Origin: an uncultured Opitutia bacterium | Lineage (GTDB): Bacteria > Verrucomicrobiota > Verrucomicrobiia > Opitutales > Opitutaceae | Assembly (NCBI GenBank): GCA_903827245.1 | Contig: CAIKHO010000068.1 | Span: 1 to 38,176, forward strand | Direction of reading: 5' to 3' | DNA length: 38,176 bases | Part shown: positions 1-23,888 of the stretch, one piece after another | Numbering within the stretch: position 1 is the first letter of the stretch | Layout: every line of letters starts with the position of its first letter | The notes under the pieces: model-generated | What the model saw: the letters and a program-made list of their open reading frames with translations, nothing else | The model's database searches: none | Told to the model about the DNA's origin: nothing | Program-made: the position numbers and the translations under genes

Positions 1-418
1 CGATGTCGCCGAAGCGCACGACGCTGAGCTCGTCCGCCGGCTGAGCGCGGCGGAGGAGCACCCGCATGCGGGCGAGGAGTTCGCCGCCGCCGAACGGTTT
101 CGTGAGGTAGTCGTCGGCGCCTGCGTCGAGCGCGGCGATCTTGTCCTGCTCCTCCCCGCGAACGGAAAGGATCAGCACGGGCAGCTGGCTCCATTCCCGC
201 AGGCGGCGCAGGACATCGAGGCCGCTCATGTCGGGCAGGCTGACATCGAGCACGACGGCATCCGGCCGCAGCACGGCGGCCTCGTTGAGCCCAAGGGCGC
301 CATTTTCCGCCTCCCGCACGCGATAGCCGGCGGCCTCGAGCGTAATCCGGAGCAGGCGACGGATCTGCACCTCGTCATCGATGATCAGGATTTCAGGTTT
401 GGCCGCGCCGGCAGTCAT
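1..418 (-). CDS. KdpE-like OmpR-family response regulator (3' part cut by window edge)
   Basis: The visible 139 codons encode a receiver domain: the acidic pair D14-D15, phospho-acceptor D58 in VVLDVSLPD, and the conserved lysine in DDYLTKPFG. The reading frame is open to base 1, so the DNA-binding domain lies outside the window. It aligns without gaps to the KdpE protein encoded at 4906-5604 (shared IDDEVQIRRLL, LREWS, ALDAGADDYLTKPFG), which makes the two paralogues. The ATG at 418 gives an N-terminus exactly as long as KdpE's; an in-frame ATG at 430 is also possible. Its family members bind promoter direct repeats after phosphorylation by a histidine kinase. Its own kinase is not visible; KdpD cross-talk is possible but inferred. 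Confidence 0.88.
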   Translation of the reverse strand, partial: MTAGAAKPEILIIDDEVQIRRLLRITLEAAGYRVREAENGALGLNEAAVLRPDAVVLDVSLPDMSGLDVLRRLREWSQLPVLILSVRGEEQDKIAALDAGADDYLTKPFGGGELLARMRVLLRRAQPADELSVVRFGDI

Positions 419-2554: not shown

Positions 2555-4639
2555 CTAACTCTGCACGGGTGCAGAAACCAAGATGGACTTGCCGGAAGCC
2601 TTGCTGCTGCGCTTCAGGTAGACGATGCCCCAGATGCCCCAGAAGGCGACGACCCCCAGGGCGAGGTACGGCTCCTTGTAGCTCATCCCCGCCACGAGGC
2701 TGGAGCCGTTCACGGGCAGCGGCCCGATGAGGTAGAAGAGCATGCAGAGGAAGTTCGCGATCACGCCAAACACCGGCACCACCACGTGCTTGAAGCCGTG
2801 GAAGGTGTGATGCTCCTTGAAGGCCACCATCGCCACGATGCAGGTCGTCATGTAGAGGAGGAACGTGCCGAAGTTGCTGATCAGCGTGATCAGGACGAGG
2901 GTATTGGGCATCTTCGCGTAGGTTTCGGGCGAGAAAATCCCGAAGCTGTACCAGAGGTTGTGCTTGTCGAGGGCCGCGGGGGTCGTGCCGCCGAGATACA
3001 GCACCACGGTGGCGATGCCGATGAAGATGGAGATGATCCCGAGCGTCCAGATGGCCCGGTGGGGCGTCAGGGTCTTCTCGTGCAGCAGGCCGAAGTGCGC
3101 GCCCATCTCCTCGTCCCGGCCCATCGCGTAGGTGACGCGGGCGCCGGTGTTGAGGCAGGCGAGGGTGGTGCCGATGAGCGCGAGGAACACGGTGAAGGCC
3201 TGCACGAGCATGAAGGCCGTGCCGGCCTTGGCGCTGCCAAATGCCCAGGTGCCGACGATCTTCATCATGTCGCCGATCGGCGCGCTCGATGCGCCCGCGT
3301 TCGGCATCGTATAACCGTTGTTAAGGAAATAATTGGCGCAGAAATATTCGATCAGGTAGCAAACCGCTCCCTGGATCACGAGCGAGAGGATGATCGCGCG
3401 GGCGACGTCCTTCTTGGGGTTCTTCGCCTCCTCCGCCATCGAGGAGACGGACTCGAAGCCGACCAGGCAGAGGATCGCGATGCAGGCCTGCACGAACAGC
3501 CAGCTGAAGTTGTGCGGGGCCACGACGGACGCGGCCGATTCATGATAGTTGAAGGTCTGCGGATCGGTCGCGCTGCCCGCCGTGCCGCTGATGCCGCCGT
3601 CCTTCGCGGTATAGCTGATGGTGAACGGGGTGGCCACCAGGTGGCCGTCCTTGTCCTTGGTCCACTTGCCATCCTTGTCTTTTTCAAAAAGCGGATACGG
3701 ATCACCGGTGGCGGCGCCCATCGCGGCCAGTGCGGCCAGCACGTCGGCATCCTTGTTCTTGTCCTTGTTCAGGTCGTCGTCCGTGACGGCCCGGTCCTGT
3801 TGCTTGATGACGGCCAGCGGCACCGGCTTGCCGTCCTTGTCCATGACGACGGCGCCCTTGTCGTCGGTCTGGTTGATGACCTTGCCCTTGTCGTCCATCT
3901 GGTATTTCGGCGAACCGTCAGCCCAGGTGTCGGGGACGCCCGCGCCTTTGTCATCGGTCACGTTCACCTGGTCGACCTGGTAGTTGATGGCCGTGCCGTT
4001 CGAGAGGTGGATGGCGGTGGCGCCTTCCACGTGGTTCATACGATAGCTCAGCGCCATGACGGAGAACACCATCAGGGCGGCGATCTGGATGATGTTCATC
4101 GCGATGTTCACGCCGGTCGAACCGTTCACTCCCCGTTGGGCGATCCACGAGATGAACAGGGAGAACACGACACAGATGATGATCATGAGCAGCGGGCTGT
4201 TGTAGGTGCCGCTGAAGGTGTCCGGCCAGAACTGGGCCGCGAGATATCCGCCCAGCAGCCCCGTGACCCCCACCATCAACCCGGGATAAACCCAGTAGTA
4301 GAGGTGACTCGCCCAGCCGGTGAAGAATTTGATGACGCGGGCGTACTTGAAGGCGTGCTTTTTGGAGAGGAAGGCCTGCTCGGCGTAAAAATAGGAGGAG
4401 CCGGTGCCGGGGTAGAGCTTCGACAATTCGGCGTAGCTGATCGCCGTGGCCAGGCACAGCAGCAGGGCGAGGAAGAAACCGAACCACATGGCGGCGCCGG
4501 CCATCGGCGCGCCGTAGAGCGCCTGCTCTTCAAACGTCAGCCAGAGAAAGGCGCCCGGGGCGATCAGCGCCATCGCATTGAAGGTCAGCCCGGTGAGCCC
4601 TAGGGTCGGCTTCATCGAGGCAGTATTTTTTTCGGCCAT
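2555..4639 (-). CDS. APC-superfamily amino acid permease with a large extracytoplasmic insertion
   Basis: The 694-residue polytopic membrane protein starts with the APC-type first helix (GLTGLTFNAMALIAPGAF). It carries the family signature FESVSSMAEEAKNPKKD (395-411) after the sixth transmembrane segment, so it probably imports or exchanges an amino acid or amine by secondary transport. The exact substrate cannot be read. It is longer than usual APC members (about 450-550 residues) because residues about 202-375, between helices 5 and 6 and predicted outside, form a hydrophilic Asp/Lys/Gly-rich insertion. That insertion has three DDKG units (229, 249, 259) and three DKDG units (267, 321, 329). 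The upstream region holds paired 11-bp-spaced heptamers like one in front of kdp, which suggests response-regulator control. The gene is single, between kdpE and a terminator. Confidence 0.88.
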   Translation of the reverse strand: MAEKNTASMKPTLGLTGLTFNAMALIAPGAFLWLTFEEQALYGAPMAGAAMWFGFFLALLLCLATAISYAELSKLYPGTGSSYFYAEQAFLSKKHAFKYARVIKFFTGWASHLYYWVYPGLMVGVTGLLGGYLAAQFWPDTFSGTYNSPLLMIIICVVFSLFISWIAQRGVNGSTGVNIAMNIIQIAALMVFSVMALSYRMNHVEGATAIHLSNGTAINYQVDQVNVTDDKGAGVPDTWADGSPKYQMDDKGKVINQTDDKGAVVMDKDGKPVPLAVIKQQDRAVTDDDLNKDKNKDADVLAALAAMGAATGDPYPLFEKDKDGKWTKDKDGHLVATPFTISYTAKDGGISGTAGSATDPQTFNYHESAASVVAPHNFSWLFVQACIAILCLVGFESVSSMAEEAKNPKKDVARAIILSLVIQGAVCYLIEYFCANYFLNNGYTMPNAGASSAPIGDMMKIVGTWAFGSAKAGTAFMLVQAFTVFLALIGTTLACLNTGARVTYAMGRDEEMGAHFGLLHEKTLTPHRAIWTLGIISIFIGIATVVLYLGGTTPAALDKHNLWYSFGIFSPETYAKMPNTLVLITLISNFGTFLLYMTTCIVAMVAFKEHHTFHGFKHVVVPVFGVIANFLCMLFYLIGPLPVNGSSLVAGMSYKEPYLALGVVAFWGIWGIVYLKRSSKASGKSILVSAPVQS

Positions 4640-4706
4640 GGTATTTTTATTTTATGAATTGCGGCTTGAACAACCGGTTCACTAACGCACCCCCCATACC
4701 ACGGCC

Positions 4707-4756
4707 CGCTAAGGAACCGCTAAGCTGCCCTCCGGAAGCGCTAAGAAAACGCTAAG
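4707..4756 (-). promoter_or_regulatory. Two tandem pairs of heptamer direct repeats, candidate KdpE-type operator of the permease
   Basis: CGCTAAG occurs at 4707-4713, 4718-4724, 4739-4745 and 4750-4756 (plus-strand reading). Spacings are 11, 21 and 11 bp, so all four fall on one face of the helix. A 7-bp unit plus 4-bp spacer is the architecture of PhoB/OmpR-family boxes. The array lies 68-117 bp upstream of the permease ATG. The second pair (CGCTAAG-AAAA-CGCTAAG) resembles the box in front of the kdp operon at 14192-14209, including the AAAA spacer. Identity of the binding protein is inferred. Confidence 0.6.
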
Positions 4757-4787
4757 CCGGCATCAGGCGATTGAACGGCTCGGACAG

Positions 4788-4857
4788 GTAGCAGCCGAGG
4801 TCACGAGGCTGGATCGAGGTGCGCGGCCCGAACCAGCCTCGTGATCTCGGCTGCTAC
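4788..4857 (+). repeat. 70-bp palindromic REP-like element, copy 1
   Basis: Two 25-bp arms (4788-4812 and 4833-4857) are inverted repeats matching at 24 of 25 positions around a 20-bp spacer. The left arm begins GTAGCAGCCGAGGTCACG. The same element lies in reverse orientation at 23811-23879, with an identical left arm and 17 of 20 spacer bases shared. It sits 48 bp past the kdpE stop and upstream of the permease operator, where its transcript would fold into a long hairpin. Confidence 0.85.
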
Positions 4858-4905
4858 ATGCCTCTGCATGGGCCGGTGCTTTCCACCCGCGGAATTGGGC
4901 CCGGC

Positions 4906-5604
4906 TTACTCCGTCACGAAACGAAATCCGATGCCGGATTCCGTCTTGAGGTGACGCGGCCGGTGCGGGTCGGCCTCCAGCTTCTGGCGGAGGTGCGTCA
5001 TGTGGACGCGAAGGTAGTGGGTGTTGCCCTCGGCCTTCGGGCCCCACACCTCGCGCAGGATCTGGCGGTGCGTCACCACCTTCCCGCGGTGCATGACCAG
5101 CAGGCGGAAGATGGAGTATTCCCGCGCGGTGAGCGACACGTCCGTGCCGGCGCGGCTCACCACCCGAGCCGCCAGGTCGACCGTGAGGTCGCCGAAGGCC
5201 ATTGCGGCCGGTTCATCCTCGTCGGCAACCGACCGCCGCAGCAGCGCGCGCAACCGGGCCGTAAGCTCGGGTGCGCCAAACGGCTTGGTCAGGTAGTCGT
5301 CGGCCCCGGCGTCGAGTGCCGCCACCTTGTCATCCTCGGCTGCGAGCACGGACAGGATCAGCACCGGCACGCGCGACCATTCGCGCAGGCGACGCACGAC
5401 CTCGACCCCGCTGCAATCCGGCAGGCCGAGATCGAGGATGATCGCGTCGAACTGCCGCGTGGCGGCCTCGGTCAGCCCCAGCTGGCCCGTCCCCGCCTCG
5501 CTCAGGCGGTAGCCGGCCGGCTCGAGCGTGAGGCGCAGCAGCCGGCGGATCTGGACTTCGTCATCGATGACGAGGATTTCCGGCCTGGCGGGGTCGGCCT
5601 TCAT
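4906..5604 (-). CDS. kdpE: KdpE, potassium-responsive response regulator
   Basis: The 232-residue OmpR/PhoB-family regulator activates kdp transcription when phosphorylated by KdpD. The receiver domain shows D14-D15, phospho-acceptor D58 (ILDLGLPD) and K107 (YLTKPFG). The winged-helix domain (about 130-232) ends with the family pattern LRVHMTHLRQKLE...ESGIGFRF. The ATG at 5604 overlaps the kdpD stop by four bases (ATGA), indicating translational coupling, so the longer upstream reading frame is not the gene. It is the last gene of the kdp cluster. Length and order match kdpDE of other bacteria. Confidence 0.96.
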   Translation of the reverse strand: MKADPARPEILVIDDEVQIRRLLRLTLEPAGYRLSEAGTGQLGLTEAATRQFDAIILDLGLPDCSGVEVVRRLREWSRVPVLILSVLAAEDDKVAALDAGADDYLTKPFGAPELTARLRALLRRSVADEDEPAAMAFGDLTVDLAARVVSRAGTDVSLTAREYSIFRLLVMHRGKVVTHRQILREVWGPKAEGNTHYLRVHMTHLRQKLEADPHRPRHLKTESGIGFRFVTE

Positions 5605-8270
5605 TCGCTGGGCACGCGACCGTGCGGGGTGAAGGGCAGATAGACGGTGAACACGGCGCCGCCGCCGGGATTCTCGCCCGCGACGATCTCGCCGCCCTGG
5701 GCGGCGACGAAGCCGCGGATGATCGACAGGCCGAGCCCGAGCCCGCCGGCGCGGGCGGCGTCGCCGCGCTGGAATTTTTGAAACAACCGCTCGCGCATGG
5801 CCGGCGGCAGGCCGGGACCGCGGTCGGCCACGGTGAAAAATATCCGGGCGCGGGCCTGGTCGAGGCCCGCCGCCAGGAAGATGGGCGTGCCGTCGGGGGT
5901 GTGCAGGGCGGCGTTGAGGACGAGGTTGGCGATGACCTGCTCCATCAACGCCGAGTCGGCGCGGAACAGGGGCAGGTCGTCGGGCACCGCGCTCTCGAAG
6001 GGATGGGCGGCGAGCGACTCGCGGATTCCGTCGAGGGCGGCATTGACGAGGTCGTGCGCGTCGCACCAGTCGAGCCGGGGCTGGAGGGCGCCGGATTCGA
6101 GCCGGGTCTGGTCGAGCAGGTTGTTGACGAGGCGGTTGAGGCGCCGGGTGGCGGTGCGGATCTCGGTCGCGAGGCTGGCGCGGGTGGAGTCGTCGGCGGT
6201 GGCCAGGCTTTCCGCGGCGGCGCTGAGCACGGCCAGCGGGGTCTTCAGCTCGTGGGACACACCGTCCAGCAGGGCGCGGTGGAGTTTCTCGGACTCGGCG
6301 AGGAGCTTTTCGCGCTCGCCGGAGGCGCGGAGCTGCTCGCGCTCGACCACGAGGGCGAGCTGAGTGGCGAAGCTGCCGGCGAGATCGCGCTGCGCAAGTG
6401 TGAGCGCTGCGTCCGAGGGCACGCGCAGGACGAACACCCCGACGGCCCGGTCCTCGCGGACCAGCGGCACGTGAAAACCTTCGGATGCGGGCAGCGTGTC
6501 GGTGAAGCGCCCGGCATTCTTGCGGTTGCGCCAGCACCAGTCGGCGACGCCGCGCTCCTTGTCCGTCAGGGTGAACGAGCCGGCAAAATGGGGTGTGAGC
6601 TCGGCGCTGCCGTCGTGGTCGTAGAGCAGCGCGGTCTGCCCGGCGAAGAGCCGGTCGGCCTGGCGGAGTGCGGCGAAGACGGCGTCGTCCAGTGTGCGCG
6701 CGGCGCTCAGGGCCTGGGTCAGGTGGAAGAGCGCGGTGGCCCGCTCCTCCCGCAGCCGCTCGTTCCGTTCCTGGGCCCGGATGCGGGCCGTGAGCTGGCC
6801 GGCAATGAGGGCGACGGCGAAGTAGGTGCCGAACATCATGCCGTCCTCGAACTTCGCGATGACGAAGGTGAAGAGGGGCGGGATGAAGAGGAAGTTCCAG
6901 GTCAGCGCGCTGAGCACACCCGCCGCGAAGACCGGTCCCCGGCCGACGCGGAGGCTGAGGGTGATCACGGCCAGGAGGTAGACCAGGCCCACGGCGAGGT
7001 AGCCGGTGTGCGGCACGAGGAACCAGTTGGCGATGGTCAGGCCGGCGAGCACGCCGGCGACCTCGCCGTATTCACGGCCTGGCGAGTTGACGGCGGGCCG
7101 CAGGCTGAGCCACAGCCCGGGTTTTTCCGCGCTGCGCTCGGCCGGCACGACATAGATGTCGATCGGCCCGCTGCGCCGCAGCAGGCGGTCGACGAGGCTG
7201 CCCCCGCGCAGCAGGTCGAGCCAGCGCGGGTTGCGCGACTGGCCGACCACGATCTGGGTGGCGTTGTTTTGCAGGGCGACGCGGACGAGCGCGGCGGCCA
7301 CGTCGTCGGCATGCGTGACCACCACCTCGGCGCCGAGCTCGCGGGCGAGCGCGAGGTTCTGCTCAAGCCGGCGCTGCGCATCAGGGCTGAGGGCGCGCGA
7401 GGACTCGACACTGACGGCGATCCACGCCGCGCCCTGGGCGGCCGCCATGCGGCGCGTCCACCGGACCAGCTGGGTCGAGGACGGGCTGGGGCCGACGGCG
7501 ACGAGGAGCCGTTCGCCGGAGCGCCAGACGGTCTGGGAGGCGCCGGTGGCGCGCAGCTCGCGGAGGCGCTTGTCGACGCGCTCGGCCACGAAACGGAGGG
7601 CGAGCTCGCGCAGGGCGGTCAGGTGGGCGTCCTTGAAAAACCCCTCGGCGGCGGCGTTGGCGCGCTCGCCGAGGTACACCTTGCCCTCGCGCAGGCGCTC
7701 CAGAAGCGATTCGGGCGGAAGGTCGATCAGCTCGATCTGGTCGGCGAGCTCGAACACGGAGTCCGGCACGGTTTCCTGCACCATGGCGCCGGTGATCTGG
7801 CGGACGGCATCGGCGCGGCTCTCGAGGTGCTGGACATTGAGCGTGGTGAAGACGTCGAGGCCGGCGTCGAGGAGCTCGATCACATCCTGGTAGCGCTTTG
7901 GGTGGCGGGAGCCGGGCGCGTTGGTGTGGGCGAACTCATCGACGAGGACGAGCTTGGGCCGGCGGGCGAGGATGGCCTCGAGATCCATCTCGGTGAGCTC
8001 CGTGCCGCGGTAGATGATTTGCTTGCGCGGGATGACGGGCAGGCCGGCGAGGAGCGCCTCGGTGTCGGCGCGCTTGTGGGTCTCGACGACCCCGACGACG
8101 AGATCGGTGCCATCGCGGAGCTCCTGCTGGGCGGCACGGAGCATGGCGAAGGTTTTCCCGACGCCGGGGCACATGCCGAAGAAAACCTTCAGCCGGCCGC
8201 GGCGGGACTGGGCCTCCTCCCGCTTGAGCGAAGCGAGCAACGCATCCGGGTCGGGTCGTTGGTCAGCCAT
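5601..8270 (-). CDS. kdpD: KdpD, potassium/turgor sensor histidine kinase
   Basis: The 889-residue protein has the complete KdpD layout. The N-terminal KdpD domain (about 20-230) has the Walker A-like GMCPGVGKT (32-40) and VDEFAHTNAPGSRH (110-123). A universal-stress-protein-like domain follows (about 252-376), then closely spaced membrane helices (about 400-495) and a GAF-like region (about 515-645). The kinase core has H673 in VSHELKTPL, an N-box NLVLNA (782-787), DRGPG (816-820) and GLGLGL (843-848). Known KdpD proteins sense K+ limitation and ionic strength and phosphorylate or dephosphorylate KdpE. The gene follows three small membrane-protein genes and overlaps kdpE by four bases. Confidence 0.96.
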   Translation of the reverse strand: MADQRPDPDALLASLKREEAQSRRGRLKVFFGMCPGVGKTFAMLRAAQQELRDGTDLVVGVVETHKRADTEALLAGLPVIPRKQIIYRGTELTEMDLEAILARRPKLVLVDEFAHTNAPGSRHPKRYQDVIELLDAGLDVFTTLNVQHLESRADAVRQITGAMVQETVPDSVFELADQIELIDLPPESLLERLREGKVYLGERANAAAEGFFKDAHLTALRELALRFVAERVDKRLRELRATGASQTVWRSGERLLVAVGPSPSSTQLVRWTRRMAAAQGAAWIAVSVESSRALSPDAQRRLEQNLALARELGAEVVVTHADDVAAALVRVALQNNATQIVVGQSRNPRWLDLLRGGSLVDRLLRRSGPIDIYVVPAERSAEKPGLWLSLRPAVNSPGREYGEVAGVLAGLTIANWFLVPHTGYLAVGLVYLLAVITLSLRVGRGPVFAAGVLSALTWNFLFIPPLFTFVIAKFEDGMMFGTYFAVALIAGQLTARIRAQERNERLREERATALFHLTQALSAARTLDDAVFAALRQADRLFAGQTALLYDHDGSAELTPHFAGSFTLTDKERGVADWCWRNRKNAGRFTDTLPASEGFHVPLVREDRAVGVFVLRVPSDAALTLAQRDLAGSFATQLALVVEREQLRASGEREKLLAESEKLHRALLDGVSHELKTPLAVLSAAAESLATADDSTRASLATEIRTATRRLNRLVNNLLDQTRLESGALQPRLDWCDAHDLVNAALDGIRESLAAHPFESAVPDDLPLFRADSALMEQVIANLVLNAALHTPDGTPIFLAAGLDQARARIFFTVADRGPGLPPAMRERLFQKFQRGDAARAGGLGLGLSIIRGFVAAQGGEIVAGENPGGGAVFTVYLPFTPHGRVPSE

Positions 8271-8386
8271 GGCGGGCGCAGCGTGGGTCAGGGGCGGAAA
8301 CGACGCAAGCAGCGGGCGGGACCGGCAATGGCCGGGCCGGACGGGCGGAGAAGCGGGGAGCGAGTCGTGACACGTGCGGGTTCATA

Positions 8387-8635
8387 TCAGGCCGGCCTCA
8401 GCGGATTTTTGCAGGAGCCGTGGGACGATGCGCGCCACCACCGGCGGAGGGCCACAAGGGACCAGATCGCCTCGACCAAGCCGAATGGCCAAGCGCCCTG
8501 CAGGAAGCCATAGGCCGAGCCGAGCAGGCACGACGCGGCGAACGCGAGGATGAACCCCGGGCCGCGGGATTCCAGCGCGTAGCAGACCAGCATGGCGGTG
8601 ACGGCGAACAGGCCGAAAAGGGTGAGCCGGTCCAT
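8387..8635 (-). CDS. Small conserved-type membrane protein between kdpC and kdpD (82 aa)
   Basis: The protein starts MDRLTLFGLFAVTAMLVCY and has two to three hydrophobic stretches (about 2-20, 26-44 and 48-62), then a basic tail (RRWWRASS). It resembles small uncharacterised membrane proteins of other bacteria that share a GSAYGFLQGAWPFGLVEA-like core. This resemblance is from memory, not a search. It begins 6 bp after the stop of the preceding small gene, so it is probably co-transcribed within the kdp cluster. Its function is unknown; a regulatory or assembly subunit of the transporter or sensor is only a guess. Confidence 0.75.
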   Translation of the reverse strand: MDRLTLFGLFAVTAMLVCYALESRGPGFILAFAASCLLGSAYGFLQGAWPFGLVEAIWSLVALRRWWRASSHGSCKNPLRPA

Positions 8636-8641
8636 GGCGGC

Positions 8642-9004
8642 TCACCGCGTCCAGCCGAGGATGAGGCCGGCCATCAGGATCAGCCAAAGCACCGCCGCGG
8701 AGCAGACCAGCCGCCGGACGAAGCGGCGGGTCTGCGCGAGGCGGGCGGCGTCGGGCATGAACGCGGAACGGTCCACGATCCATTGCACCTCCTCCATGGC
8801 CCCGGCGTGATCCCAGCGGTATTTGTCGGCGATGAAACCCTCGGCCGCGAGCTCGCGGATGAAGCAGGCCTTGCGCTCGGCGGAGAACGTGTGGCGCGAA
8901 GCCCGGATGATGGGGCCCTGCGGGAGATTCTCGACGGTGACGAGGGTATCGAGCGGCGCGAAATAAAACTCGTAGCAGGGGGCAGCGATGGAGGCGGCTT
9001 TCAT
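8642..9004 (-). CDS. Uncharacterised 120-aa protein with a C-terminal membrane helix, kdp cluster
   Basis: The ATG at 9004 is chosen because it overlaps the stop of the preceding small gene by four bases (ATGA); a longer in-frame start at 9088 would run back through that gene. The first 95 residues are soluble and mixed in charge (YEFYFAPLDTLVTVENLPQG near the start). A single hydrophobic helix (about 100-117) follows, with a GWTR end, which makes it a tail-anchored-like protein. No family was recognised. Its position between kdpC and kdpD suggests a role linked to potassium uptake or sensing. Confidence 0.65.
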   Translation of the reverse strand: MKAASIAAPCYEFYFAPLDTLVTVENLPQGPIIRASRHTFSAERKACFIRELAAEGFIADKYRWDHAGAMEEVQWIVDRSAFMPDAARLAQTRRFVRRLVCSAAVLWLILMAGLILGWTR

Positions 9005-9174
9005 GGCGCGGGAAGGGGTTTGGCGGGTCCGGCCGGGGAGTCCACGTGCAGGTCGATGCGGGCCGGGCCGGGCGGGCGCTGACTGCATTGCCAGACCAGC
9101 AGGACAAGGCTCGTGGCCACGAGGACGGTGAACGCGATCCGAAAGGGGCGGTCGAATTTGCGGAGTCGTTTCAT
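9001..9174 (-). CDS. 57-aa single-span membrane protein, kdp cluster
   Basis: The predicted protein starts MKRLRKFDRPFRIAF, a strongly basic N-terminus. One membrane helix follows (about 13-32) and then a proline-rich tail of about 22 residues, a cytoplasm-in topology by the positive-inside rule. An in-frame ATG at 9192 would add six residues (MAGVHP); neither start has a clear Shine-Dalgarno. It starts 35 bp after kdpC and shares a four-base ATGA overlap with the next gene, which supports its being real. No family was recognised. Confidence 0.6.
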   Translation of the reverse strand: MKRLRKFDRPFRIAFTVLVATSLVLLVWQCSQRPPGPARIDLHVDSPAGPAKPLPAP

Positions 9175-9208: not shown

Positions 9209-9802
9209 TCAGGGCGCGGCGGCCAGCCGGTCGAGCGCGAGGTTGAGCTGGAGCACGTTCACGGAGGGCTCGCCAAAAATCCCCCAGTCGCGGTCGCGGG
9301 CGGTCTGCGTGACGAGTGCCTGGACCTGCGGGAGCGGGAGGTTGCGGGCCTTGGCGACCCGGGCGGACTGCAGCCCGGCGTTGGCGACGCTGATGTGTGG
9401 GTCGAGGCCGCTGGCGGAGGAGGTCACGGCATCGGCGGGAACGGGAGCGTCCGCGGCGAGGCCGTTGGCCGTGCGGTAGGTGGTGACGGCGGCCTTGATG
9501 CTGTCGCTGAGCTTCTGGCTGGTCGGGCCGAGGTTCGTGCCGCCCGAGCTGGTGGCGTCATAGCCGGTGCCGGCGGCGGACGGACGCGGCTGGAAGTACT
9601 TGTCGCTGGTGAAACTCTGCGCGAGCAGCAGCGAGCCGCGCACGGCGCCGGCCTGGTCGGTGACGAGGCTGCCGTTGGCCTTGTCGGCGAAGAGAGCCTG
9701 CGCCCCGGCCCAGATGGCAAGCGGATAGACGCCGCAGAGCAGCACGGCGAAGAGCAGCGTGAGCACCACGGAGGTTTTGATTTCGGCGAGGAAGGTTTTC
9801 AT
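9209..9802 (-). CDS. kdpC: KdpC, chaperone-like subunit of the K+-transporting ATPase
   Basis: The 197-residue protein has one N-terminal membrane helix (about 10-33) and a periplasmic domain with KdpC hallmarks: YFQPRPSA, SGGTNLGPTS, TSSASGLDPHIS and a C-terminal EPSVNVLQLNLALD. KdpC stabilises the KdpFABC complex and raises ATP affinity of KdpB. It lies 140 bp downstream of kdpB, an unusually long gap for this operon that is filled by a long hairpin. Confidence 0.97.
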   Translation of the reverse strand: MKTFLAEIKTSVVLTLLFAVLLCGVYPLAIWAGAQALFADKANGSLVTDQAGAVRGSLLLAQSFTSDKYFQPRPSAAGTGYDATSSGGTNLGPTSQKLSDSIKAAVTTYRTANGLAADAPVPADAVTSSASGLDPHISVANAGLQSARVAKARNLPLPQVQALVTQTARDRDWGIFGEPSVNVLQLNLALDRLAAAP

Positions 9803-9942: not shown

Positions 9943-11982
9943 TCAGACGAGGTGGAGGGCGTTGATCAGGACATCGATGAACTTGATGCCGACGAAGGGG
10001 ATGATGATGCCGCCAAGGCCGTAGATGAGCAGGTTGCGGCGGAGCATGGCGGCGGCGCCGACCGGGCGGTAGGCGACGCCGCGGAGCGCGAGCGGGATCA
10101 GCGCGATGATGACGAGCGCGTTGAAGATGACGGCGCTGAGGATCGCGCTGAGCGGGGAGGCGAGCCCCATGACGTTGAGCGGGGCGATGGCGGGGAAGGC
10201 GCCGACGAGCATGGCCGGAATGATCGCGAAATATTTCGCGATGTCGTTGGCGATGCTGAAGGTCGTGAGCGAGCCGCGGGTGATGAGCATCTGTTTGCCG
10301 ATCTCGACGATCTCGAGGAGCTTCGTCGGGTTGCTGTCGAGATCGACCATGTTGCCGGCCTCCTTCGCGGCCTGGGTGCCGGTGTTCATGGCCACGCCGA
10401 CATCGGCCTGGGCGAGCGCGGGGGCGTCATTGGTGCCGTCGCCGGTCATGGCGACGAGGTGCCCCTTGGCCTGCTCCTCGCGGATGCGGGCAAGCTTCAT
10501 TTCCGGGGTGGCCTGGGCGAGGAAGTCATCCACGCCGGCCTCGGCGGCGATGGCGGCGGCGGTGAGGGGATTGTCACCGGTGATCATGACGGTGCGGATG
10601 CCCATGGCGCGGAGCTGCGCGAAGCGTTCCTTGATGCCGCCCTTAACGACGTCCTTGAGGTGGATGACGCCGAGCACCTCGCGGCCGTCGGCGACGACGA
10701 GCGGGGTACCGCCGCTGCGGGAGATGGCGTCCACGGCCTCGGTGACGGCCGCGGGGTAATTGCCGCCCTGGGACTCGACCCAGGCCTTCACATTGGAGGC
10801 GGCGCCCTTGCGGACGGAGCGGGCGGCCTGGCCGGCGCCGGCGGCGATATCGACGCCGCTCATGCGCGTCTGCGCCGTGAAGGGCACAAAGGTGGCGGGC
10901 GGGATGGCGACCTCGCGGCCGCGCAGGTTGAACTTTTCCTTGGCGAGCACGACGATGCTGCGGCCCTCGGGCGTCTCGTCGGCGAGCGAGGCGAGCTGGG
11001 CGGCGTCGGCGAGGCGTTCGCGGGTGACGCCGGGCGCGGGCACGAAGTCGCTGGCCTGGCGGTTGCCGAGGGTAATGGTGCCGGTCTTGTCGAGGAGCAG
11101 CACGTCGATGTCGCCGGCGGCCTCGACGGCGCGGCCGGAGGTGGCGAGGACGTTGCGCTGGAGCAGGCGATCCATGCCCGCGATGCCGATGGCGCTGAGC
11201 AGGCCGCCGATGGTGGTCGGGATGAGGCAGACCAGCAGCGCGATGAGCGTGGTGATGGAGAACGCGACGCTCGCATAGATGCCAAACGGCTTCAGCGCGA
11301 GGATGACGAGCAGGAAGATGATGGTGAGCGCGGAGAGCAGGATAGTGAGGGCGATCTCGTTGGGCGTCTTCTGGCGGCTGGCGCCCTCGACCATGGCGAT
11401 CATGCGGTCGATGAAGGTGTTGCCCGGCTCGGAGGTGATGCGGATGACGATGCGGTCGCTCAACACGCGCGTGCCACCGGTGACGGCGCAGCGGTCGCCG
11501 CCGCTTTCGCGCACCACCGGGGCGGATTCGCCGGTGATGGCGGACTCGTCGACCGAGGCGATGCCCTCGATGACGTCGCCGTCGGCGGGGATAACGTCGC
11601 CGGTTTCGCAGACGACGGAGTCGCCCTTGCGGAGGTCGGTGGCGGCGACCTTTTCCTCGTGGCCGTCGCGCAGTCGGCGGCCGAACGTCTGCGTGCGGGC
11701 GCGCTTGAGCGTGTCGGCCTGGGCCTTGCCACGGCCCTCGGCGACGGCCTCGGCGAAGTTGGCGAAGATGACGGTGAAGAGCAGCCAGAGCGCCACCTGG
11801 AGGACGTAGCGGAACGGCTCGGTCGAGGTGAACAGCTGCTCAAACGTGAGCAGGGCGCCGATCAGCGTGACGAACATGACCGGGTTTTTCAGCTGGGCGC
11901 GCGGGTCGAGCTTCTTGAAGGAGTCGATGACGGCCTGCCGCATGATCGAGCGGTCGAAAAGGGAAACAGCTTTGGTGCTCAT
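9943..11982 (-). CDS. kdpB: KdpB, P-type ATPase catalytic subunit of the K+ pump
   Basis: The 679-residue protein is full length for KdpB. It contains the actuator motif TGES (150-153), whose serine corresponds to the inhibitory phosphorylation site known in E. coli KdpB. It also has the phosphorylated aspartate D298 in [11 protein letters not shown], the hinge [12 protein letters not shown] and [17 protein letters not shown]. KdpB hydrolyses ATP and drives K+ that enters through KdpA. Hydrophobic helices lie near 35-75, 212-265 and in the C-terminal third. The regulatory TGES site is notable because a serine/threonine kinase-phosphatase is encoded close by (690-2480). Confidence 0.98.
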
Positions 11983-12030: not shown

Positions 12031-13848
12031 TCAGAACAGCTTGCCGGCGCCCATGAGGTAGTGCTCGACGACGGGACCCATCGCCAGGCCGGGCAGGAAG
12101 GTGAGGGCGCCGACGAGGACCACGGTGCCGACGAGGAGGACGATGAAGGTCAACCCCTCGACCTTGAAGGTGCCGGCGCTCGCCGGGACGAGCTTCTTGG
12201 ACGCGAGATTGCCAGCGAGCGCGAGGATGGGCACGATCATGAGGAAGCGGCCGATGAGCATGGCGATGCCGAGGGTGGTGTCCCAGTGCGGGTCGCCGTC
12301 GGCCGGATTGGCGGTGAGGCCGGCGAAGGCGGAACCGTTGTTGCCGACGGCGGAGCTGTAGGCGTAGAGCATCTCGCTGAAGCCGTGCGGGCCGGCGTTG
12401 TTGAGCCCGGCCTGGCCCCAGGTGGAAATGCTGGCCCAAGCGGTGAAGCCCAGGATCGTGGCTGCGAGGACCATCAGCACCAGCATGACCAGCTTCACGT
12501 CGTAGGCCTGGATCTTCTTGCCGAGATATTCCGGGGTGCGGCCGACCATCAGGCCGGCGATGAAGACGGCGAGGATCACGAAGATCAGCATGCCATAGAG
12601 GCCGGCGCCGACGCCACCGAAGATGACCTCGCCAGTCTCGATGTTGAAGAGCGGCACGAGCCCGCCGAGCGGCGTGAAGGAATCGTGCATGGAGTTAACC
12701 GCGCCGCAGGAGGCATCGGTCGTGATGGTGGCGAAGAGTGCCGAGTTGAAGATGCCGAAGCGGACCTCCTTGCCCTCCATGTTGCCGTCGGTCGCGGCGA
12801 TGCCGAGCTGCTGGTGGATCGGATTGCCGGAGGCCTCCGCCTTCCAGCAGACGAGCACGCCGACGACAAACATGGCGAACATGGCGCCCCACACGGCCCA
12901 GCCGTGGCGCTGGTTTTTCACCATGCGGCCGAGGTAGTAGGTGAGCGCGCTCGGGATGGCGAAGATCGAGAGGATCTGGAAGAAGTTGGAGAGCGGCGTG
13001 GGATTCTCGAACGGGTGCGCGGCGTTGGCATTGACGTAGCCGCCGCCGTTCGTGCCGAGCATCTTGATCGCGATCTGGGAGGCCATCGGGCCCTGCACGA
13101 TGGTCTGGGTGTCGACGGACTGGTCGACCATGACGGGCGTCTTGCCGTCGGCGGCCAGGACCGGTTTGCCGGCGGCGTCGGTCTTCGGGACCTGGATGGT
13201 GTAGGGCTCGTAGGTCTTGGCCGCGGTGTAGGGCTTGAAATTCTGGATGATGCCCTGCGAGACGAGGAACAGCGCGAAGATGACGGAGACCGGCACGAGG
13301 AGGTAATAGGTCACTCGCACCGTATCGACCCAGAAGTTGCCGATGGTCTGGGCGGTCTGCCGGGCGATGCCTCGCACCAAGGCGGCGGCGATGGCGATGC
13401 CGACGGCGGCGGAGGTGAAATTATGGATGGTCAGCGCGACCATCTGGGAGAAATACGACATGGTCGATTCGCCCGAATAGCTCTGCCAGTTGGTGTTGGT
13501 GGTGAAGCTCGCGGCGGTGTTGAATGCGAGGTGCGGCGTCAGGCCGGGCAGGCCCTGCGGGTTGAGCGGCAGGTGATCCTGGAAGCGCAGAATGAAATAG
13601 GTGAACAACAGCCCGACCAGGCTGAAGGCAAGGAGCGCGAACGTGTAGCCGATCCAGCCCTGCTCGTTCGCCGGATTGATACCGCAGAGCCGGTACGTGA
13701 GCCGCTCGACCGGGCGCACGACCGGGTCGAGCCAGGTCCGGCCGCGGGCATCAAGCACCTGCACCAAGTAAAGCCCCAGGGGCTTGGTGACGAGCAGCAG
13801 CGCACCCACATAGAGCGCGAATTGAAACCAGGAATTGGGATTGTTCAT
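12031..13848 (-). CDS. kdpA: KdpA, K+-channel-like subunit of the Kdp ATPase
   Basis: The 605-residue membrane protein has pore-loop signatures in all four repeats, including TTNTNWQSYSGE (116-127), GTNGGGYVNANAAHPFENPT (265-284), SCGAVNSMHDSFTPLGG and NNGSAFAGLTAN. It binds K+ selectively at the outer face and feeds it to KdpB. It is about 45 residues longer than E. coli KdpA. Most of the excess is a hydrophilic stretch at about 215-245 (DAAGKPVLAADGKTPVMVDQ) just before the second pore loop, predicted outside. The ATG at 13848 lies 10 bp after a perfect palindrome. Confidence 0.98.
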   Translation of the reverse strand: MNNPNSWFQFALYVGALLLVTKPLGLYLVQVLDARGRTWLDPVVRPVERLTYRLCGINPANEQGWIGYTFALLAFSLVGLLFTYFILRFQDHLPLNPQGLPGLTPHLAFNTAASFTTNTNWQSYSGESTMSYFSQMVALTIHNFTSAAVGIAIAAALVRGIARQTAQTIGNFWVDTVRVTYYLLVPVSVIFALFLVSQGIIQNFKPYTAAKTYEPYTIQVPKTDAAGKPVLAADGKTPVMVDQSVDTQTIVQGPMASQIAIKMLGTNGGGYVNANAAHPFENPTPLSNFFQILSIFAIPSALTYYLGRMVKNQRHGWAVWGAMFAMFVVGVLVCWKAEASGNPIHQQLGIAATDGNMEGKEVRFGIFNSALFATITTDASCGAVNSMHDSFTPLGGLVPLFNIETGEVIFGGVGAGLYGMLIFVILAVFIAGLMVGRTPEYLGKKIQAYDVKLVMLVLMVLAATILGFTAWASISTWGQAGLNNAGPHGFSEMLYAYSSAVGNNGSAFAGLTANPADGDPHWDTTLGIAMLIGRFLMIVPILALAGNLASKKLVPASAGTFKVEGLTFIVLLVGTVVLVGALTFLPGLAMGPVVEHYLMGAGKLF

Positions 13849-13907: not shown

Positions 13908-13991
13908 TCAGAATTTCTCCGGGCGGAGCACGGCGACGACGAGATAGACGAGCAGGCCGAGGGAGATGAGGCTGATAAGGATGTTTTCCAT
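13908..13991 (-). CDS. kdpF: KdpF, small stabilising subunit of the Kdp ATPase
   Basis: The 27-codon frame begins MENILISLISLGLLVYLV and ends VLRPEKF. It is a single membrane helix followed by the L-R-P-E-K-F terminus characteristic of KdpF (commonly YLLYALLRPEKF). It precedes kdpA by 59 bp, the expected location. KdpF binds and stabilises the KdpABC complex in the membrane. Confidence 0.9.
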   Translation of the reverse strand: MENILISLISLGLLVYLVVAVLRPEKF

Positions 13992-14043: not shown

Positions 14044-14133
14044 TCAGCGCACTTTCTCGCAGAAGTGGGCGTAAGCGGCGGCGAGGACGAAAAACGCGAT
14101 GGAGAGGGTGGCGAAGACGAAATCGTTGTTCAT
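14044..14133 (-). CDS. 29-aa single-span membrane micro-protein leading the kdp operon
   Basis: An open frame of 29 codons starts MNNDFVFATLSIAFFVLAAA and ends CEKVR. It is one hydrophobic helix with a short charged tail. Small proteins of this pattern are known upstream of kdpF/kdpA in other bacteria (recalled, not searched). It is the first gene after the candidate KdpE box, 52 bp before kdpF. Its function is unknown, probably an accessory of the Kdp complex. Confidence 0.65.
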   Translation of the reverse strand: MNNDFVFATLSIAFFVLAAAYAHFCEKVR

Positions 14134-14191
14134 GACCCCGCGAGTATCGCACCGCCGGGGCCGTTCGCCTAGTCAAGCGGGGCGGCGAAGG

Positions 14192-14209
14192 TGTTAAGAA
14201 AACATCAAG
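14192..14209 (-). promoter_or_regulatory. Candidate KdpE box of the kdp operon
   Basis: TGTTAAG-AAAA-CATCAAG (plus-strand reading) is two related heptamers 11 bp apart, 59-76 bp upstream of the first kdp micro-gene. It resembles the paired heptamers before the permease (CGCTAAG-AAAA-CGCTAAG). Spacing fits OmpR/PhoB-family regulators. It lies in the 352-bp gap 14134-14485, which otherwise holds only the repeat at 14225-14373 and presumably divergent promoters for kdp and the helicase. Confidence 0.55.
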
Positions 14210-23636: not shown

Positions 23637-23810
23637 GATGCGGAGTCGGCCAAGACGCGTCGTGGCGCGCAAGGCTATTAGCCGGGGGCAGGCGGCGGGA
23701 GTTGTCGATCAGCCGTTGGGAAAACCGCGGGGGCTCCCGCCCATGGCTGATTGCCCGCTGCGATGCGCCCGGGCTCAACCGGGATCATGCAGTTGAAACG
23801 CCTCAGAGAG

Positions 23811-23879
23811 GCAGTGGCCGAGGTCACGAGGCTGTTCGGGCTGAGTACCTCGATCCAGCCTCGTGACCTCGGCTGCTAC
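23811..23879 (-). repeat. Palindromic REP-like element, copy 2 (inverted relative to copy 1)
   Basis: Read on the minus strand from 23879, its first 25 bases are identical to those of the copy at 4788-4857. The spacer matches at 17 of 20 bases and the last arm at 20 of 24, with one base missing. It begins 10 bp after the glnD stop codon, so its hairpin could end or protect the glnD transcript. Confidence 0.85.
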
Positions 23880-23888
23880 CTCTCCGGC

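Follow-up and report, generated by a model that had tools for sequence, protein, structure and literature searches.

Upstream of an APC-superfamily permease in the window (the whole 38,176-nucleotide stretch analysed here), four copies of one heptamer are, on balance, best read as KdpE-type half-sites set in register upstream of a σ54 promoter, where proteins of the KdpE family would act as accessory regulators and the permease would answer to both nitrogen and potassium. The boxes, their conservation, their register with a σ54-like element and their recurrence beside KdpE-type genes can all be traced in the DNA. A sequence-only reading had proposed that one operator links the permease to the kdp operon, and this seems half right: the arrangement resembles a module, seen repeatedly, in which KdpE-type regulators go with σ54 promoters, and not an ordinary KdpE operator copied to a second gene.

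The heptamer boxes and their conservation

On the plus strand, exact CGCTAAG occurs four times, at 4707–4713, 4718–4724, 4739–4745 and 4750–4756, with the spacing of 11/21/11 that had been reported. The minus strand, which encodes the permease, reads CTTAGCG-TTTT-CTTAGCG-N14-CTTAGCG-GTTC-CTTAGCG from box 1 (4750–4756) through boxes 2 (4739–4745) and 3 (4718–4724) to box 4 (4707–4713), and the array lies 68–117 bp 5′ of the permease ATG (4637–4639). Pairwise identity among the four heptamers (42/42 positions) was equalled in 0 of 3000 shuffles. The pair claimed for the kdp leader, TGTTAAG-AAAA-CATCAAG on the plus strand at 14192–14209, is also present and belongs to the same box class. Its gene-strand (minus) reading is CTTGATG-TTTT-CTTAACA, with CTTGATG (box 1) at 14203–14209 and CTTAACA (box 2) at 14192–14198. 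A third minus-strand box missed earlier, CTTGACT (14171–14177), starts 21 bp past box 2 and gives the two leaders 11/21 spacing in common. Box 3 starts 29 bp before a minus-strand −10-like hexamer, GATACT (14143–14148), and the pair starts 61 bp before it.

We trained a matrix on the kdp leaders of 17 relatives, with the window excluded, and the window's kdp pair and permease boxes came out as the top four sites in the 38 kb: 18.1 bits at 14192–14209, 17.1 for each permease pair and 16.0 at 4750–4767, against 10.1 for the next best. The best site in 60 simulated windows had a mean of 12.4 and a maximum of 19.6 bits; since a lone site of such score is within chance, the weight of the permease boxes lies in their clustering and conservation. 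Loose box patterns were rejected as genome-wide evidence, because reversed controls gave more matches for both two-box patterns (6 places versus 44 for CTTARCN5CTTARC with 1 mismatch; 6 versus 11 for TTRRYRN4YTTARYR). With 2 mismatches allowed, the former matched as often in 22 of 100 shuffles.

The kdp layout is well kept among relatives. The pair and third box stand at exactly 11/21 in 18 of 20 distinct kdp leaders, the window's included (16 identified by pattern and two by eye, L007 and L106, the first box of L106 being poor), and the layout is absent from the other two, L009 and L102; the duplicates L107, L108, L111, L112, L114 and L115 were left out of these counts. Among the 95 relatives searched, kdpA occurs in 18 genomes, and a three-box match lies just 5′ of the gene in 16 of them. 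The three-box pattern occurs at 41 places in the 95 genomes, 29 of them within the family versus 22 in the reversed control (hand count). Their placement is more telling than their number: of the 29, 18 precede kdpA and 3 precede the permease. Together with the kdp-trained matrix, this conservation supports the proposal that a single class of 11-bp direct repeat is common to the permease and kdp leaders. A third kdp-type three-box promoter was seen in the window's own genome (L174, G000:C16:22895-22930), with TAAAAT at the −10 place, followed by a 60-aa ORF (MKTYYSLSS...) and a terminator-like hairpin.

Before the permease, box pairs above 13.5 bits occur in eight distinct leaders: the window, L007 (of which L155 is the same sequence), L154, L082, L065, L052, L008 and L032. 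Duplicate loci were dropped, as were L010, L064 and L025, which have too little upstream DNA; L007 and L010, titled Verrucomicrobia and Opitutae, are the closest named permease loci. The boxes were rejected as a trait of all permease homologues, since those with Geobacter, Nitrospirae or Acidobacteria titles score mostly at shuffle level, with L043 (13.0 bits) and some weaker homologues as exceptions. Conservation at orthologues, on which the shared operator had been staked, thus holds for kdp and for kdp-linked permeases and fails for about 50 other permease leaders, which lack boxes.

The boxes of both leaders look like KdpE half-sites. In the portion of PMC3264566 available, the E. coli element is described as TTTATA-N5-TTTACA, lying at −72 to −50 from the start upstream of kdpFABC. 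Like it, the present boxes are direct-repeat half-sites with an 11-bp period and an invariant TT starting each (the window, and 16 of 20 kdp leaders by pattern), and the kdp pair, placed from the −10-like hexamer, is predicted to lie upstream of kdpFABC at about the same −72 to −50. The elements differ in that the half-sites here are TTRATG/TTARCG, in that one pair in E. coli is replaced by a pair plus a third box (kdp) or by two pairs (permease), and in that the available text of PMC3264566 gives the E. coli site without a σ54 element. None of the half-sites here starts with TTTA; they start TTAG, TTAA or TTGA (third base A here, T in E. coli), and therefore represent a variant of this clade and differ from the E. 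coli site itself. The window's KdpE keeps identical counterparts of R193, R200 and T215, the DNA-contact residues of the E. coli protein, when the two are aligned. Pho boxes of the PhoB/PhoP type share the 7+4 direct-repeat architecture and class II placement; 11-bp direct repeats are general to OmpR/PhoB regulators. Their half-sites are of the CTGTCAT type, unlike CTTAGCG, CTTGATG or CTTAACA, and the regulator here is KdpE-like by sequence; a pho-box identity was accordingly rejected.

The σ54-like element of the permease promoter

Downstream of the array on the minus strand, also missed by the earlier reading, is a σ54-like −24/−12 element (TGGTATGGGGGGTGC, 4687–4701). It reads TGGTATG-N5-TGC, which matches GG-N10-GC with YGGYAY and TGC and resembles a −24/−12 element, not a σ70 −10. 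Measured from its TGG, boxes 1 to 4 start at −55, −44, −23 and −12. In seven of the eight permease leaders with pairs above 13.5 bits, YGGYAY-N7-GC begins at a distance of 10–12 bp, counted from where the last box starts (12 bp in five, 11 in one, 10 in one), each with a shuffle rate of 0.0001–0.001. Outside these seven is L008, which has the box pair without the element. TGC is present in 14 of 14 elements, where the search required GC in some and never the T.

Taken alone, the element is unremarkable, as shuffles score equally in 15.5% of cases. The bare σ54 pattern was rejected as genome-wide evidence, with 22 matches in the genome versus 35 in the reversed control and hence no enrichment. 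It is also matched in 3 of 18 kdp leaders, over their −10, so the two motifs can be confused. For both reasons, the case for σ54 lies in register and conservation.

The genomic setting is consistent with σ54 use. We found rpoN in 9 of 9 permease-bearing genomes tested, and the window's genome has seven matches to the σ54 activator domain PF00158, four of them strong; inspection by eye of the DNA upstream recognised no enhancer site for an AAA+ activator. Judged by these motifs, the kdp and permease leaders share only the boxes, and their predicted promoters differ: kdp has a −10 at fixed distance and the permease a σ54-like element.

Gene context and recurrence of the layout

The minus-strand order is kdpA (12031–13848), kdpB (9943–11982), kdpC (9209–9802), an unmatched stretch (8382–9107), kdpD (5601–8270), kdpE (4906–5583), the permease (2555–4639) and a PP2C phosphatase–Ser/Thr kinase fusion (690–2480). 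The KdpD sensor kinase scores 698 bits, under its NCBIfam cut-off of 1123. KdpE, a receiver plus winged helix whose nearest solved relative is E. coli KdpE, scores 277.8 bits, under the equivalog cut-off of 325. A small minus-strand ORF read from the sequence at 13908–13991 (MENILISLISLGLLVYLVVAVLRPEKF) is KdpF-like. Another small ORF (14044–14133, MNNDFVFATLSIAFFVLAAAYAHFCEKVR) lies 5′ of it, and similar short membrane ORFs are readable in the kdp leaders of many relatives. The unmatched stretch between kdpC and kdpD holds a 241-aa ORF for which neither Pfam nor NCBIfam gave a match. A near-perfect palindrome (4778–4866; hairpin −78 kcal/mol, z −6.8) separates kdpE from the permease. It was rejected as a kdpE terminator special to the site, being a dispersed repeat with 79 strand-wise matches, so about 40 genome copies, another of them at 23802–23886.

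The permease (694 aa) belongs to the APC superfamily by Pfam (PF13520) and is CAT/AdiC-like by PDB sequence and fold. By sequence and fold its nearest structures are CAT/AdiC first, KCC from rank 6 and KimA at rank 29, so that a KimA-type potassium carrier is not favoured; the structural model is of middling quality (mean pLDDT 75.6). In 43 of 56 homologous permease loci, the next gene downstream on the permease's strand is a PP2C-kinase homologue, and the fusion is likely a post-translational switch of the transporter. The same 56 loci carry AmtB-like genes in 22 cases, PII in 15 and either in 24; PII lies just upstream of the permease in L009 and L013, and AmtB and PII lie between kdp and permease in G025. 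A σ54-like element is found upstream in 5 of 5 close amtB-PII loci. The earlier suggestion of a regulon joining potassium and organic-solute uptake keeps the support of the shared boxes, but its second term was loose: because the permease is CAT/AdiC-like and AmtB or PII occurs at 24 of 56 loci, nitrogen is the better guess.

We scored boxes at the fixed offsets −55/−44/−23/−12 from TGG, which had been picked on the permease leaders and were then applied to every site. Among 807 distinct σ54-like sites in 1.68 Mb of fetched DNA, 16 pass at 0.003 (15 in the first scan, 16 with a lower pre-filter), where about 2.4 are expected by chance. Ten of the 16 have a kdpE-type gene no more than 1 kb away, versus 15 of the 791 others, and the T of TGC, which is outside the search pattern, is present in 15 of 16 versus 182 of 791, with Fisher values (8e-13 and 5e-9) that overstate independence, as the scanned DNA came from the surroundings of kdp, kdpE and permease genes and its rows are related by descent; the odds are not genome-wide. 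Three further passing sites belong to permease leaders whose clusters include kdp genes at a greater distance, and those at L022, L094 and L131 look like chance.

In a set of 21 leaders, nine score 0.0013 or less: the permeases of the window, L007, G203, G026, G025, L052 and G022, together with C79 and the G080 amtB. The G079 amtB leader scores 0.005. Eleven do not pass, including the C86 amtB and the G018 permease, both with a KdpE-type gene nearby, and the L032 permease leader failed the strict geometry. C79 and C86 are σ54-like sites right after two more KdpE-type genes of the window's genome, C86 standing before amtB-PII. New passing sites adjoin KdpE-type genes in L007 (16226, 16475), L010 (11907) and L198 (19865). 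Near kdpE-type genes at L010:9460, L199:8124 and L232:6312 are TGGTAT...TGC sites without the four-box geometry, perhaps with other box layouts. The layout occurs before the permease, amtB-PII, PII (G203) and apparent small RNAs, next to other KdpE-type genes. Downstream of the promoter in L007 (twice), L010 and C79 there is no convincing gene but a strong terminator-like hairpin, which suggests candidate small RNAs; the spans noted are L007 16226–16400 and 16475–16620, L010 11907–12100 and L229 5859 to about 5560, and Rfam gave no match in five loci.

As had been noted, two regulators flank these genes: KdpE, and a paralogue (2–397, minus strand) that is 67% identical and truncated where the contig ends, leaving just the receiver part. 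The genome holds at least five other KdpE-type genes or fragments more than 55% identical. Recognition helices and boxes seem to vary together in the few cases matched by eye. KdpE genes with the helix MTHLRQKLE (window, L007, G026) go with CTTARCG-like boxes, those with M/V-M/L-RLRRKLE (G022, C79, G080, L010) with boxes such as GTTTATG, GTTCACG and GTATATA, and those with MSRLREKLE/MARLRQKIE (the second L007 gene, G203) with GTTGATG. This pairing points to the neighbouring regulator as the probable reader of each box set. Paralogues had been offered as second readers of the present boxes and probably are not, since those with changed helices adjoin their own diverged boxes. A broader reading, which we hold only tentatively, is that this bacterial family has a standing class of σ54 co-regulators made up of KdpE-type proteins that lack an AAA+ domain, each gene beside a σ54 promoter with its own four half-sites at −55/−44/−23/−12. 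Helix and boxes would co-evolve, and the promoters would drive genes for nitrogen or potassium transport (the APC permease, amtB-PII, PII) and terminator-ended small RNAs.

Proposed mechanism, alternatives and related systems

We propose that the heptamers form two tandem pairs of KdpE-type half-sites in fixed register 5′ of a σ54 promoter, which would drive the permease and, probably, the kinase–phosphatase gene after it. Phosphorylated KdpE, formed under potassium scarcity, would bind the kdp leader as an ordinary σ70-type activator, as in E. coli. At the permease leader, two KdpE dimers would occupy about −81 to −32, so that the second would stop short of the −24 element and lie beside it. 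Promoters of the σ54 class require an AAA+ domain, and Pfam finds none in KdpE, only receiver and winged helix; since such a protein cannot open a σ54 promoter itself, its role would be accessory. Most likely it would help to hold or recruit σ54-RNA polymerase, or bend the spacer DNA, as IHF does, and an NtrC-type AAA+ protein would supply the ATP-driven opening. We infer binding by KdpE or a close paralogue, use of σ54 and a positive effect, helping being more likely than blocking, so that the permease would respond jointly to nitrogen through σ54 and to potassium through KdpE.

It is possible, if somewhat unlikely, that KdpE binds the boxes and represses the σ54 promoter by blocking polymerase or the enhancer loop, with the permease off under potassium scarcity. 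A last box starting 12 bp before the −24 element in five of seven leaders is near enough to interfere, and KdpE lacks the AAA+ domain needed to activate σ54. The boxes nonetheless lie wholly upstream of −24, nearly in the kdp register, where activation is expected, and repressors more often cover the start site. The reader of the boxes might also be not KdpE itself but a different member of the OmpR family, such as one of its paralogues or a protein like PhoB. We consider this improbable: the several KdpE-type genes of the genome and the general occurrence of 11-bp direct repeats in the OmpR/PhoB family leave room for it, but the permease boxes score like kdp boxes in the kdp-trained matrix, and the neighbouring KdpE keeps the MTHLRQKLE helix seen with CTTARCG boxes, while paralogues with other helices adjoin diverged ones.

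Still less probable is that the permease promoter is an ordinary σ70 promoter with an extended −10 (TGGTAT), activated by KdpE, and that the GC 10 bp downstream is incidental. The leaders of G203 and G026 read TGGTATAAC and TGGTATGAC, as this would have it, and TGGCAT likewise precedes the −10 of some kdp leaders. Yet the sixth −10 base is T in 0 of 14 σ54-like elements versus 17 of 18 kdp leaders, all 14 have TGC, the would-be −10 sits 3 bp nearer the boxes than at kdp, the homologues L011 and L029 have full-consensus σ54 elements without boxes, and a consensus scan of 4500–5000 found no sigma70-like promoter. That the heptamers reflect chance or a recent tandem duplication without function is hardly credible. 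The four window copies are identical, as if fresh, but relatives keep the positions with altered letters (CTTAACG, CTTAATA, TTTAGCG, GTTAACG), and simple tandem duplication does not give alternating 11/21/11 spacing.

In the usual teaching, promoters of the σ54 class belong to AAA+ enhancer proteins. Those with IHF or bEBP sites share the GG-N10-GC core and regulator sites further upstream; the present ones differ in having winged-helix half-sites in fixed register beside −24. If the favoured reading of KdpE as an accessory regulator is true, a winged-helix response regulator so placed would be a further way to feed a second signal into σ54 promoters, and would give a direct transcriptional link from potassium shortage to nitrogen transport. 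KdpE boxes tying potassium to nitrogen transport through σ54-like promoters would be unusual. Because the spacing is fixed and helix and box change together, the idea lends itself to tests in vitro on short DNA fragments with the proteins in purified form.

Partial parallels exist. In Desulfovibrio vulgaris, several response regulators control the kdp operon (PMC3333781), so that potassium uptake likewise depends on multiple regulators, and the genome has many σ54-dependent response regulators; OmpR-type boxes abutting a σ54 promoter are not described in the available part of that report. In Vibrio cholerae, the OmpR-family protein VxrB regulates type VI secretion, a system in which the auxiliary clusters require VasH and σ54 (PMC4441509). 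An OmpR-family regulator and σ54 thus act on one system there too, but the available text describes neither a site nor direct contact with a σ54 promoter. A module of KdpE-type boxes at σ54 promoters was not found described in the accessible portions of the open-access literature searched. A link between potassium and nitrogen has been argued via the nitrogen phosphotransferase system (PMC3665714). As a separate observation, a PII gene lies directly 5′ of kdpA in L009 (3609–3947), suggesting nitrogen control of the potassium pump.
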